The position numbers and the translations under genes were made by a program. A stretch of 64,000 nucleotides of DNA, from positions 124,001-188,000 of the forward strand of contig NZ_JAHVAO010000003.1 of the NCBI RefSeq assembly GCF_019264345.1, given 5' to 3'. This document shows, in pieces, positions 48,336 through 56,129 of the stretch. This DNA is from Marinobacter arenosus. GTDB lineage: Bacteria; Pseudomonadota; Gammaproteobacteria; Pseudomonadales; Oleiphilaceae. Position 1 is the stretch's first letter, and every line of letters starts with the position of its first letter. The notes beneath the pieces were generated by a model. The model had not been told where the DNA came from, searched no databases, and was given only the letters and a program-made list of their open reading frames with translations.

Positions 48336-49175
48336 TCAGTCGCCCATCACCCGAAAACGCACTTCGTACCCGGTGAACTTCCGGATATTGATGACCCCGG
48401 TATCCAGAATGAGGTACTGGCCCTTGATGCCCTCCAGCACACCCTCCACTTCCGGGGTCTTGTCCAGATTGTGAGTCTTTATTTTTTCCGGCCAGACATC
48501 AACCGGGTAGCTCAGTCCGAGGCCGTCCTCATCGACTTCCTGGATCGCGTTCTGGCCATGAGTCTCCCGCAATGCCGCCAGATCGCCTGCAATCAGGCCC
48601 AGCATGCGCTGGCGCTCGTCGGCAAGGTTCAGCTCAGGGACGTCCCCTTTCAGCATGGCGCGCCAATTGGTCCGGTCCGCCACGTGACTCTTGCAGGCCA
48701 CCTCCACCAACCCCGCGATGTAGCGGGTTGCGACACGAACCATGGGAATCGCCTCTACCGCACCCTGGTCAATCCAGCGGGTGGGAACCTGAGAGCCCCG
48801 GGTGATTCCGACTTTCAAGCCGGACGAATTGGCCAGGTACACCACGTGCTCGACCATGCAATGGGTTTCGCCCCACTCCGGCTCACGGCAGGTGCCCAGG
48901 TGATAATGGCACTTTTCCGGGCTCATGATGCAAGTGTCGCAGGCCGCCAGCTTCCGGAAACAGGGGTAACAGTACCCCTGATTGAAGCTTTTCTTGGTGG
49001 TGCGGTCACAGTGGATGCAGCGAATGACACCGTCAAAGTCGAGGCGAACCCGCTTGCCGAGGAATTCGTTCAGTGGGATGCGGCTGTCGCCTACCGCAAT
49101 GGAATAGGAAACTGGCGCCACCGCTTCGGCCGGCATTTTGCGCAGCCGACCCGTCACGTCAATCAGATCACTCAA
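48336..49175 (-). CDS. DUF2797 protein with zinc ribbons and GIY-YIG-like core
   Basis: The 279-residue protein contains two clusters of Cys (C53, C56, C69, C72, then C79, C82, C89, C96) that look like zinc-binding knuckles. These are followed by EHVVYLANSSGLKVGITR (109-126), TRWIDQGA and a conserved Glu in GLVEVACKSHV (Glu158). That layout resembles a GIY-YIG nuclease core, with VVY...KVG as the GIY...YIG strands. The biochemical role of DUF2797 is not known. The start overlaps the stop of the DUF1315 gene by four bases. Confidence 0.85.
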   Translation of the reverse strand: MSDLIDVTGRLRKMPAEAVAPVSYSIAVGDSRIPLNEFLGKRVRLDFDGVIRCIHCDRTTKKSFNQGYCYPCFRKLAACDTCIMSPEKCHYHLGTCREPEWGETHCMVEHVVYLANSSGLKVGITRGSQVPTRWIDQGAVEAIPMVRVATRYIAGLVEVACKSHVADRTNWRAMLKGDVPELNLADERQRMLGLIAGDLAALRETHGQNAIQEVDEDGLGLSYPVDVWPEKIKTHNLDKTPEVEGVLEGIKGQYLILDTGVINIRKFTGYEVRFRVMGD

Positions 49176-49465
49176 GACTTGACCTCGACAAACTGGTCCG
49201 GATCAATGTCAGTCTTGCCGGCATTCGCCCTTTGCACCGAAGGATCACAGGCGGTGCCTGCCTTGGCGCCCCGATCAATGTAGCCTGTGCGCTCCTCTTC
49301 CGGGACCTGGTGCAGGTTCTCGTAGTAGATGACCGCTTGCAGGCTGATCTCCCGCTGCTCCGGTGTGAGCTTTCTGCCGTCTGGCCACTTTCCCAGCTCG
49401 ATCGACTGGCGGAGGCTCCGGTAGACATTGGGATCCAATCGCTCAATCAGTTCATCGTAAGTCAT
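49172..49465 (-). CDS. DUF1315 (YeaC-like) small protein
   Basis: The 97-residue protein from 49465 (GGGAG seven bases upstream) matches DUF1315: MTYDELIERLDPNVYRSLRQ, LGKWPDGRKLTPEQREISLQ and YYENLHQVPEEERTGYIDRG. The function is unknown. It is translationally coupled to DUF2797. Its 5' region faces the candidate Fur-regulated small RNA, whose Fur box could also affect this gene. Confidence 0.85.
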   Translation of the reverse strand: MTYDELIERLDPNVYRSLRQSIELGKWPDGRKLTPEQREISLQAVIYYENLHQVPEEERTGYIDRGAKAGTACDPSVQRANAGKTDIDPDQFVEVKS

Positions 49466-49508
49466 TCGGTTCTCCCGAAACGCGTTCAAAAAAATGTGCC
49501 TCAACCGT

Positions 49509-49538
49509 TTGACAGATGCAAACGATAACAATTATCAT
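49509..49538 (+). promoter_or_regulatory. Promoter with overlapping Fur box
   Basis: TTGACA (49509-49514) is a perfect -35 and TATCAT (49533-49538) a good -10, spacing 18 bases. Bases 49523-49537 read CGATAACAATTATCA, matching 12 of the 14 specified positions of the Fur 7-1-7 consensus TGATAAT-N-ATTATCA. The box covers the -10, so iron-loaded Fur would block RNA polymerase. It is palindromic, so the divergent DUF1315 gene could also be affected. Confidence 0.65.
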
Positions 49539-49544
49539 TCCCTC

Positions 49545-49631
49545 GCCAAATGACGACGGTCGTATCATTTGGTCTCTCTCATCAGGAGCTTCTAGCTCTT
49601 TTCATGCCCCGCCCCTTGGCGGGGCTTTTTT
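49545..49631 (+). ncRNA. Candidate Fur-repressed small RNA (RyhB/PrrF-like role)
   Basis: Starting seven bases after the -10, about 87 bases lead to a strong terminator. The first part folds as CCAAATGA (49546-49553) against TCATTTGG (49565-49572). Then an open pyrimidine-rich tract (TCTCTCTC, 49573-49580) and a weak hairpin GAGCT/AGCTC are exposed. Last comes the terminator stem with a U-tail, typical of Hfq-binding RNAs. No plausible protein is encoded: the only small frame reads through the terminator. The role is inferred from the Fur box; there is no recognised sequence match to RyhB or PrrF. Confidence 0.55.
49606..49631 (+). terminator. One-way terminator of the candidate small RNA
   Basis: GCCCCGCC and GGCGGGGC with loop CCTT, then six T residues. 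On the opposite strand the stem is followed by ATGAAAAG, so it works only in the plus direction, although no plus-strand protein gene precedes it. Confidence 0.85.
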
Positions 49632-49639
49632 ATGGGCCG

Positions 49640-50494
49640 TCACTGTTTTCTTACGGGCAATAGCAGCGCAAGGGCCACTCCACTGACAAACCCGCCCAGA
49701 TGGGCTTCATTGGCCATACGCCCCAACCCCAACAGTTCCATAAAGGGCGTGAACCCAATCACCATCCAAACCACGGCGAACGTCACCAGCGCAGGCGGGA
49801 AATGAAATCTCGGAACCTTGCGCTGACTCAGCCAGCAGTACCCGAGAATGCCATAAACCACGCCGGACAGCCCGCCAAACAAGGGTCCGGAAACCAGGTA
49901 CTGAAGTCCATTCGAGAAAATACTGGTGCCGAGGAACAACACAATCAAGCGCCCTCGCCCATCGAACCATTCAATCTGGCTGCCAAGAAACCACAGCATG
50001 ACCGCATTGAAGATAATATGGGTCCAACTGAAATGCAGGAAATCGGGGGTCAACAACCGCCAGACCTGGCCGCTGGCCAGGGTGTTGGCAAGCGCATCAA
50101 CGCGGCCCGCCATGGTGCTCCAGTCAAAACTCCTTGGGTCGATGACCATGAGCGCGGCGGCGAGCTCATTACGCCCCATCGCCGTTACCCAGACCATGAT
50201 CACGGCAAAGACAATCAGCCCCAGTACAACGGGCGCATGCCGGGGCGACGGCTGCCAGCGACCACGCACGAAGACGGAGGAATGCTGCTGGCGCTCCACA
50301 GCGTCTCGCAGCTCAGGCTCAGCAAGAAATCGCTCCAGGGCCGCAAGGACGGGTTCCGCGTGCTCAGGATTCTCCAGCCACAGAACCTGGTGATCGTTTT
50401 CTTCCGTGATCCGGTGCGCCACACCCTGTCCAGCCAGCCATCGACTGAAGCCGGCGAGATTCACCGTGGTATCCAACTGCTTCACGCGGTACAC
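49640..50494 (-). CDS. Rhomboid-family intramembrane serine protease
   Basis: The 284-residue protein has a soluble N-terminal domain (1-85, like the GlpG cytoplasmic domain) and six or seven helices. The catalytic pair is visible: Ser210 in GGLSGVVYG and His265 in EAHLGGFVSG; HFSWTHIIFNAVML (154-167) supplies the conserved His/Asn oxyanion residues. It cleaves substrates inside the membrane; targets unknown. GTG start with a GCGAGG site. It follows the metallophosphoesterase by about 40 bases. Confidence 0.92.
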   Translation of the reverse strand: MYRVKQLDTTVNLAGFSRWLAGQGVAHRITEENDHQVLWLENPEHAEPVLAALERFLAEPELRDAVERQQHSSVFVRGRWQPSPRHAPVVLGLIVFAVIMVWVTAMGRNELAAALMVIDPRSFDWSTMAGRVDALANTLASGQVWRLLTPDFLHFSWTHIIFNAVMLWFLGSQIEWFDGRGRLIVLFLGTSIFSNGLQYLVSGPLFGGLSGVVYGILGYCWLSQRKVPRFHFPPALVTFAVVWMVIGFTPFMELLGLGRMANEAHLGGFVSGVALALLLPVRKQ

Positions 50495-50533
50495 AAAAAA
50501 CCTCGCCTGTCGGAGTAATCGGGTTCCGTTATC

Positions 50534-51553
50534 TCAACGGGCAATGCTGTCTTCGGTGCCGGAATAGCCCGGCTGTTCTGGGCGGTCAACGTCCACCCAT
50601 ACAAATTTGTCTGGGGAAAGCACCGACTCACCGTCCATTCGGTAGGCTACTAACCGGCCGTATTTCACCGCGCTGTAGTCGATGCAGGCCACGTTGGCCT
50701 TAAGTGGGGCCGGCTCCCCTTCCATCCAGTAATGCCCCACAAATACCGGTGGCGCATCCACCGGATAACTGATCAGCTGCTTGCGCTCGTTTTCGGTCAA
50801 CACCATGCGGGCCACCTCCGGCGGCAGGGGGTCCGGCTGGAACACCACGTCGGCATAAGTGTGCGGGTCATCGGCCCAGAACTTGGTCCGGAAAAACTCC
50901 CGGACATAGCCGTCCCGCCCCGTGATCTTGGTCCCCTCCGGCAGGCGCAAATCCGTTCCTCGAAGCAAGGTATCCATGACCTGCCCGGCAAACGACTCAA
51001 TGGCCGCCGATGCATGCAGGAAATCCTCGTCAATGCAGGCGCCGCCCTGGATCTGTTTGAACTTTTCAATCAGCTCCCCATCCCAGCAGGCATGAACGAC
51101 CCGGAAGCCGTCCTCCTCAATAAACAGGGGGATGCTGTAGAACCAGTCCAGAAACTCGTTCCATTCATGGGGGTAGGCGTCAAACTGCTCGAGGGTTTCG
51201 CGAATCAGTCGATCATGCCGGGCATTGTGCTCACGCAGCCACTTTTTGCCGCTGCCAGAACGGGCACGGGTGCAGTAGCCCAGCGCATTGTACTCGTGAT
51301 TACCCATCACAATCCGGGCTGAGCCATGCTCCACCATGTCGCGCACCAGGTGCAGGGCTTCACGGATTCTGGGGCCACGGTCGATAATATCGCCAATGAA
51401 AATCGCCTGGCGCCGGTCGTGCTGATACACACCGTTCACCTTCCGGTAGCCCATCTGCTCCAGCAACCGGATCAGGGTATTGGCGCAACCGTGGATGTCG
51501 CCGATGATGTCAAAGCCGCGGCTTGCGTTGTGTCTGTTTACAGCCATGATCAA
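50534..51553 (-). CDS. Metallophosphoesterase (PrpE/ApaH-like)
   Basis: This 339-residue calcineurin-type phosphoesterase has DIIGDIHG (Asp19, His21), GDIIDRGP (Asp55, Asp58) and GNHEYNAL (Asn85, His86), with later His in VVHACWD and FVGHYW completing the two-metal site. Relatives hydrolyse diadenosine tetraphosphate or phosphoprotein, but the substrate here is uncertain. The ATG overlaps the nadK stop by four bases, so it is coupled to nadK; an ATG two codons later is also possible. Confidence 0.87.
   Translation of the reverse strand: MIMAVNRHNASRGFDIIGDIHGCANTLIRLLEQMGYRKVNGVYQHDRRQAIFIGDIIDRGPRIREALHLVRDMVEHGSARIVMGNHEYNALGYCTRARSGSGKKWLREHNARHDRLIRETLEQFDAYPHEWNEFLDWFYSIPLFIEEDGFRVVHACWDGELIEKFKQIQGGACIDEDFLHASAAIESFAGQVMDTLLRGTDLRLPEGTKITGRDGYVREFFRTKFWADDPHTYADVVFQPDPLPPEVARMVLTENERKQLISYPVDAPPVFVGHYWMEGEPAPLKANVACIDYSAVKYGRLVAYRMDGESVLSPDKFVWVDVDRPEQPGYSGTEDSIAR

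Positions 51554-53993: not shown

Positions 53994-56129
<2,136 letters not shown>

Follow-up and report, generated by a model that had tools for sequence, protein, structure and literature searches.

A conserved small RNA of Marinobacter that is very probably switched on at low iron and stops the making of iron-containing proteins

The RNA gene described here lies at positions 49509-49631 (+) of the window, by which we mean the whole 64-kb stretch of Marinobacter arenosus DNA that was analysed, in the gap between two minus-strand genes encoding a DUF1315 protein and a rhomboid protein (Table 1). The initial annotation had noted at this place a perfect -35, an 18-base spacer and a TATCAT -10 overlapped by a Fur box matching 12 of 14 positions, and all of these elements are seen at 49509-49538 (+). 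The promoter carries 11 of the 12 consensus bases, and a simple consensus scan of 48600-50600 returned two promoter-like sites, among which it is the sole one on the plus strand. A search of the window for TTGACA-N18-TATCAT with at most one mismatch gives this single site, where 0.19 are expected; 17 of 100 shuffles also contained one. The Fur box, scored against the 7-1-7 consensus, is the sole site in the 64 kb with two mismatches or fewer (expected 0.03; 3 of 100 shuffles had one).

The hairpin, the open pyrimidine tract and the one-way terminator with six T residues that had been reported on the plus strand are confirmed, and folding brings out a second hairpin that the initial annotation lacked. 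The RNA from 49544 to 49631 folds at -36.7 kcal/mol (z -5.5), a value equalled by none of 200 shuffled sequences. The open part of the conserved seed is nearly fully unpaired, and its neighbour GGAGC is locked inside the second hairpin. The conserved tract extends into CAUCAGGAGC, which weighs more in the predicted pairing than TCTCTCTC alone.

Table 1. Features of the small RNA locus, with positions in the window.
Feature	Position	Strand	Basis or remark
DUF1315 gene	start 49466	minus	PF07023
Rhomboid gene	end 49640	minus	PF01694
Sigma-70-type promoter TTGACA-N18-TATCAT of the RNA gene	49509..49538	+	consensus scan; retained in the aligned copies, four of them with a changed -35
-35 TTGACA	49509-49514	+	perfect consensus
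-10 TATCAT	49533-49538	+	spacer of 18 to the -35
Predicted Fur box 7-1-7, CGATAACAATTATCA	49523..49537	+	12/14 match; overlaps spacer and -10
Small RNA gene	49544..49631	+	about 87 nt; start predicted near 49545 from the -10
5' hairpin, 9+3 bp (GCCAAAUGA / UCAUUUGGU plus inner stem)	49545..49573	+	fold; 96.0% of cells paired
Open CU-rich stretch CUCUCUCAUC	49574-49583	+	ten unpaired bases in the fold
Conserved seed GGUCUCUCUCAUCAGGAGC	49571..49589	+	open at 49574-49583; complementary to fdxA, acnB, sodB and petA leaders
Second hairpin, 7 bp (AGGAGCU / AGCUCUU)	49584..49600	+	fold; 88.2% of cells paired
Intrinsic terminator, 8-bp all-GC stem, loop of 4	49606-49625, then T6 49626-49631	+	T run on plus strand only

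When 49466-49640 was used as a BLAST query, the locus turned up in all but one of 37 genomes of the genus (36, M. arenosus included), the one miss being a genome that is 62% complete. Among 21 other genomes of the order the same search gave a single match, which runs over 28 bases near the terminator. Promoter, Fur box and terminator, on whose conservation in relatives the initial annotation had made its proposal depend, are retained in an alignment of 37 RNA copies from 36 genomes: the Fur box matches 11-13 of 14 positions in all 37 copies, the terminator is present throughout, and TTGACA stands at equal spacing except in four rows (L027, L027b, L031 and L036), where the -35 is altered or shifted. 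The seed varies little across these copies. The block GGTCTCTCTCATCAGGAGC is near-constant, with a C-to-T change in L033, two bases lost in L036, changes among the last four bases in L019, L029, L032, L034 and L035, and a different first base in L032 and L035.

The covariance search of Marinobacter genomes that had been proposed was carried out with R1, a model of the RNA and its relatives from which the promoter was excluded. With stricter filters and a limit of E 1e-6, R1 detects the RNA in 120 of 124 genus genomes; if the 110 good ones alone are counted, 108 have it. The four genomes that gave no match at this limit, a point against our reading, are G033 (62% complete), G275 (76%) and G239 and G268 (both listed as 100%), the last two of which have either lost the RNA or carry divergent copies. 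One genome of the 124, G020, has two R1 matches; here the RNA is duplicated in tandem, with starts separated by 233 bases and a separate Fur box for each copy (L027 and L027b in the alignment). A pattern scan of named genomes gave at least 80 loci, and among the matches listed (80 loci) 75 bear the name Marinobacter, the remainder belonging to Tamilnaduibacter salinus and to MAGs labelled Oleiphilaceae (two), Gammaproteobacteria and Halomonas. Both DUF1315 and rhomboid flank the RNA in 112 of 116 loci, a number made up of 36 and 80 loci from two genome sets that have some species in common; in the remaining four a single one of these neighbours is seen, and the RNA lies less than 150 nt from where the fetched stretch stops. 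The same two neighbours flank the RNA in G222, which represents the other genus of the window's family.

The predicted structure also leaves its trace in the alignment. The three hairpins, drawn from the same aligned sequences on which they were tested, have 94.9% of cells paired, compared with 38-54% when the structure is slid, and 35 cells with two-sided changes, compared with 11.7 (sd 4.2) in shuffles. Such changes occur in five of the six counted pairs of the second hairpin and in three of the eight pairs of the terminator stem, and are missing from the 5' hairpin because it is nearly invariant. That sequence changes track base pairing counts against a small protein gene opened by the conserved ATG inside the 5' stem. 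This ATG (49550, within CCAAATGA) is retained in most copies, but its frame reads through the terminator, as do the open reading frames listed on the plus strand (e.g. 49516-49686 and 49550-49663), and one-base indels between species shift it. The reading frame is therefore not that of a protein, in agreement with the initial annotation, and we consider a coding function extremely improbable. The Fur box, being palindromic and also upstream of DUF1315, could in principle serve that divergent gene, with the hairpins forming an unrelated terminator region. This is very unlikely: the scan for simple consensus sites found no minus-strand promoter-like site near the box, the terminator lacks a T run when read on the minus strand, and the spacing from the box to the plus-strand -35 and -10 is retained in the aligned genomes, together with the hairpin, the seed and the terminator, whereas the DUF1315 leader varies. 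Because of its genus-wide conservation we count the RNA as real; to judge from the sequence, it is almost certainly a small RNA gene of the whole genus, and there is little doubt that Fur represses it.

Pairing of the seed was evaluated on leaders of candidate genes drawn from 13-19 genus genomes, with gene starts chosen by script or by the conserved N-terminus (the GTG start of acnB is our own choice). Windows of 22 nt were scored, and the controls were 44 leaders of window genes and 150 permuted seeds, the latter applied to 8 genomes per gene. The best predicted target is fdxA, identified by the NCBIfam FdxA equivalog. Of 19 fdxA leaders, 11 have GCTCC(T/C)GATGAGA some 39-45 bases ahead of the ATG, and seven of these offer 13 consecutive bases complementary to the seed. 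GATGAGA, which stands clear of the Shine-Dalgarno (SD) sequence, is kept in 18 of the 19 leaders, which otherwise vary. The duplex in M. arenosus reaches -27.9 kcal/mol, as good a value being given by none of the 44 window leaders and none of the 150 permuted seeds, and 89% of the 19 genomes exceed the best 5% of window leaders. Counting against this target, the full duplex requires the opening of hairpin 2. Next comes acnB, in which CTGATGAGGG precedes the GTG start and lies over the presumed SD in 12 of 13 genomes. Its duplex is weaker (-18.1 kcal/mol, a value matched by 2 of the 44 leaders and by 1 of the 150 permuted seeds), and 92% of the 13 genomes exceed the best 5% of window leaders. 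The conserved complementarity of both fdxA and acnB thus passes the two controls.

Two further targets are plausible. The leader of sodB, whose enzyme may hold Fe or Mn, carries AGAGAGAC or GAGAGAA(C)C immediately upstream of the SD in many genomes and passes the permuted-seed control (3 of 150 as good) but not the real-leader control, where 8 of the 44 leaders do equally well and the best 5% are exceeded in only 11% of 19 genomes. A general point against the pairing evidence is that a CU-rich seed readily finds partners in purine-rich SD regions. In a single case, G006, where the seed has a C-to-T change, the sodB leader holds GAGAGAAACC, an exact 10-base complement. The Rieske protein gene petA (NCBIfam TIGR01416) emerged from a gene-blind pattern search of 13 genus genomes with at most one mismatch, which gave 77 sites, compared with 7 for the reversed pattern. 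Thirteen of the 77 are the RNA itself, and among the 19 sites inspected from the other 64, petA is the sole gene that recurs in leader position; in these two genomes of the 13 it pairs with their own seeds at -26.5 and -28.7 kcal/mol.

A 16-nt antisense pattern, allowed up to three mismatches, found 24 sites in the M. arenosus genome, compared with 5 when reversed. They include the RNA itself and the fdxA leader, and many others lie inside open reading frames. Three stand at the starts of genes that, named by eye, are oxidoreductase-like (L075), Rho-like (L078) and glyceraldehyde- or erythrose-phosphate-dehydrogenase-like (L079). We know of no iron link for these genes, which counts against iron-sparing targeting. 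At L075 (G000:C1:883715), ACTGATGAGAGAGG stands just before the ATG and is a strong complement of the seed, seen in one genome. Within the window, the minus-strand gene at 53994-56063, which has Oxidored_FMN and Pyr_redox domains and FadH/OYE-type proteins as its best, below-cut-off NCBIfam matches, has a leader (ACTGTGATGATGAGGAGATCAA) that pairs at -19.8 kcal/mol, second of the 44. It is one of the two window leaders that equal acnB and is a possible further target.

Other iron-related candidates were rejected on the permuted-seed control: sdhC (113 of 150 as good), bfr (36 of 150), a second ferritin set that mixes different ferritin-like genes (58 of 150) and sdhD (147 of 150), the last despite being a listed PrrF target. 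A plain RNAduplex run over long leaders, against 284 leaders of which many are mutual orthologues and with guessed starts for the sdhC leaders of G004 and G011, did not set sodB or sdhC apart, as it permits huge loops. The initial annotation had predicted pairing at ribosome-binding sites and had pointed to sdh, sod, acn and bfr mRNAs. Pairing at or near such sites gains support for fdxA and acnB, less so for sodB, and for petA in two genomes, and sdhC, sdhD, bfr and the second ferritin set find none.

These features suggest the following course of events. When iron is plentiful, Fe-Fur bound to 49523-49537 would, from the position of the box, cover the -10 and keep the gene off. When iron is scarce, an RNA of about 87 nt would be transcribed from around 49545 to the terminator. 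Its seed, presumably with the help of Hfq, which is encoded in the genome, would pair with mRNAs that encode iron-using proteins, either at the ribosome-binding site or upstream of it: in the first place that of the ferredoxin FdxA, then that of the aconitase AcnB, and probably those of PetA (the Rieske protein) and SodB (the superoxide dismutase). Pairing would lower translation of the targets and so save iron. Taken as a whole, a trans-acting, Fur-repressed small RNA that spares iron by seed pairing is highly likely, and the iron-sparing part taken by itself is likely. The iron-sparing layout of RyhB/PrrF type proposed in the initial annotation thereby gains support from conservation and from the predicted pairing with iron-protein leaders. 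In the portions of PMC3377617 used here, iron limitation of Pseudomonas fluorescens Pf-5 changes FdxA by about -2 and AcnB by -0.9 to -1.6 log2 at the protein level with transcripts not lowered, which fits post-transcriptional control.

Fur-repressed iron-sparing small RNAs are a known functional kind, to which the Marinobacter RNA would be an addition. Among the papers listed in searches on Marinobacter, none describes an iron-sparing RNA for it in title or abstract; in the sections consulted, an expression study of Marinobacter (PMC8233155) has "small RNA" in its reference list alone, and PMC7857532 names Marinobacter in a reference alone. The enterobacterial RyhB, whose function is described in passages of PMC7377471, shares the proposed Fur-repressed, iron-sparing mode, but no sequence relation shows: the RyhB model (RF00057) scores 12.6 bits at the RNA against a gathering score of 55 (E 8.3). 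BrrF of Burkholderia, according to the same passages, is likewise made at low iron and has aconitase, SodB and further iron proteins as its targets; they describe it as having no sequence similarity to RyhB, PrrF or known Fur-regulated RNAs. They place no Fur box directly upstream of BrrF, thought to be co-expressed with hemP, whereas a promoter and a Fur box of its own precede the Marinobacter RNA.

The closest known RNAs are PrrF1 and PrrF2 of Pseudomonas (RF00444), which also have a Fur box over the promoter, the CUCAUCAGG core and a terminator, and share with it the pairing with acnB and sodB, which for the Marinobacter RNA is a predicted one. Their tandem arrangement is paralleled in G020. 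The Marinobacter RNA differs in being shorter, in lacking GCUAAUCACGG and in its DUF1315-rhomboid locus, and pairing with sdhC, sdhD and bfr is unsupported for it; PrrF targets listed in the part of a review drawn on here are antR, sodB, PA4880, acnB, m-acnB and sdhD (PMC6321483). At Rfam gathering scores the whole window yielded only two tRNAs. With the cut-off lifted, the best Rfam match was PrrF at 33.7 bits, where 90 are asked (E 0.00024). The unrelated, terminator-bearing anti-hemB reached nearly the same E-value in that search (0.00031), so terminators alone carry much of such scores. The initial statement that the RNA matches no known family therefore holds in that none reaches the Rfam cut-off, and is to be qualified by the sub-threshold likeness to PrrF. 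By Rfam's test the RNA is not a PrrF member.

We searched 194 genomes of the order with the PrrF model, which hit 32 of them, seven above the cut-off. The window's family is represented by eight genomes, of which six were hit, each solely at the RNA locus; M. arenosus itself and G154 are not listed among the family matches. The best of seven genus genomes reached 44.5 bits (E 4.8e-6 per genome). Sub-cut-off PrrF-like loci were found in eight other families (f2, f7, f16, f34, f36, f37, f38 and f45). CTCATCA is present in 21 of the 24 other-family loci inspected, the exceptions being L062 (f16), L064 and L066, and in 20 of those 21 it continues with GCTA(A/G)TCA. The core found elsewhere, UCUC(C/U)UCAUCA(A/G)GCUA(A/G)UCACGG, is represented in the Marinobacter RNA by its first half, the second half GCUA(A/G)UCACGG being absent.

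One reading is that the RNA is a genuine orthologue of PrrF that goes back to the same ancestor and was relocated and shortened in the Marinobacter family, and we give this reading about an even chance. It is favoured by the PrrF model, which lists the RNA locus as its only match in those six family genomes and finds no second PrrF there, and by the reverse search, in which R1 had hits in 40 other-family genomes and in 5 of them reached loci of PrrF or PrrF-like kind (7 loci, 26.7-34.5 bits). The seed also resembles PrrF cores. Against a weight matrix built from 21 cores of six families (L062 left out), 9 of 5000 shuffles reach the score of the seed over its first 17 bases and 58 of 5000 over 28 bases; a linker-only version of the test, with 2788 and 2626 of 5000, says nothing either way because its linker is cut inside the match. 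Apart from the low score, the anti-hemB match and the lack of a listed match in M. arenosus, several points tell against orthology. The Rfam model spans TTGAC and the Fur box, and part of the score is therefore not due to the RNA. R1 gives many equally weak hits: 18 of the 39 remaining ones were fetched (including one from a genus genome, where it is a second weak hit), and all look terminator-like with Fur-box matches never above 10/14, so that R1 says little at that score. The genomic place is different as well. Among 11 stretches from other families that contain PrrF or a PrrF-like locus, 6 have a gene for a cyclic-nucleotide-binding protein next to it (five identified by Pfam PF00027, L289 by sub-cut-off CRP-type matches alone), and none has DUF1315 or rhomboid there.

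This difference of locus, together with a 5' hairpin unlike that of PrrF and the missing half core, speaks for an independent analogue whose CU-rich, CAUCAGG-bearing seed arose separately and suits the same regions of iron-protein mRNAs; the passages of PMC7377471 on BrrF provide a precedent. The fact that the PrrF and R1 models each reach loci of the other RNA and the shuffle test of the seed argue against separate origin, which we regard as conceivable though somewhat doubtful. The RNA is probably a divergent relative of PrrF that would work like it and may descend from it. A more specific history, in which a PrrF descendant was relocated in the Marinobacter family, lost one half of the core used for pairing and acquired new targets, is rather unlikely. 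If true, the RNA would chiefly silence the iron-sulfur electron carriers FdxA and the Rieske protein, and aconitase, with the mRNAs of succinate dehydrogenase and ferritin dropped, and an iron-sparing regulon would have been rewired inside one order.

Marinobacter is a common marine genus that degrades oil and handles iron, and the sea is poor in iron. The RNA may offer a handle on iron rationing in marine bacteria of this type, and with the PrrF-like loci of other families it would form a natural series for following how an iron-sparing RNA changes its seed, place and targets. Several of the PrrF-like loci numbered L049-L068 and L288-L296 (f2, f7, f34, f36, f37 and f38) adjoin a cyclic-nucleotide-binding gene, and sub-cut-off PrrF-like loci stand in twos or threes in 6 of the 19 genomes that have them.
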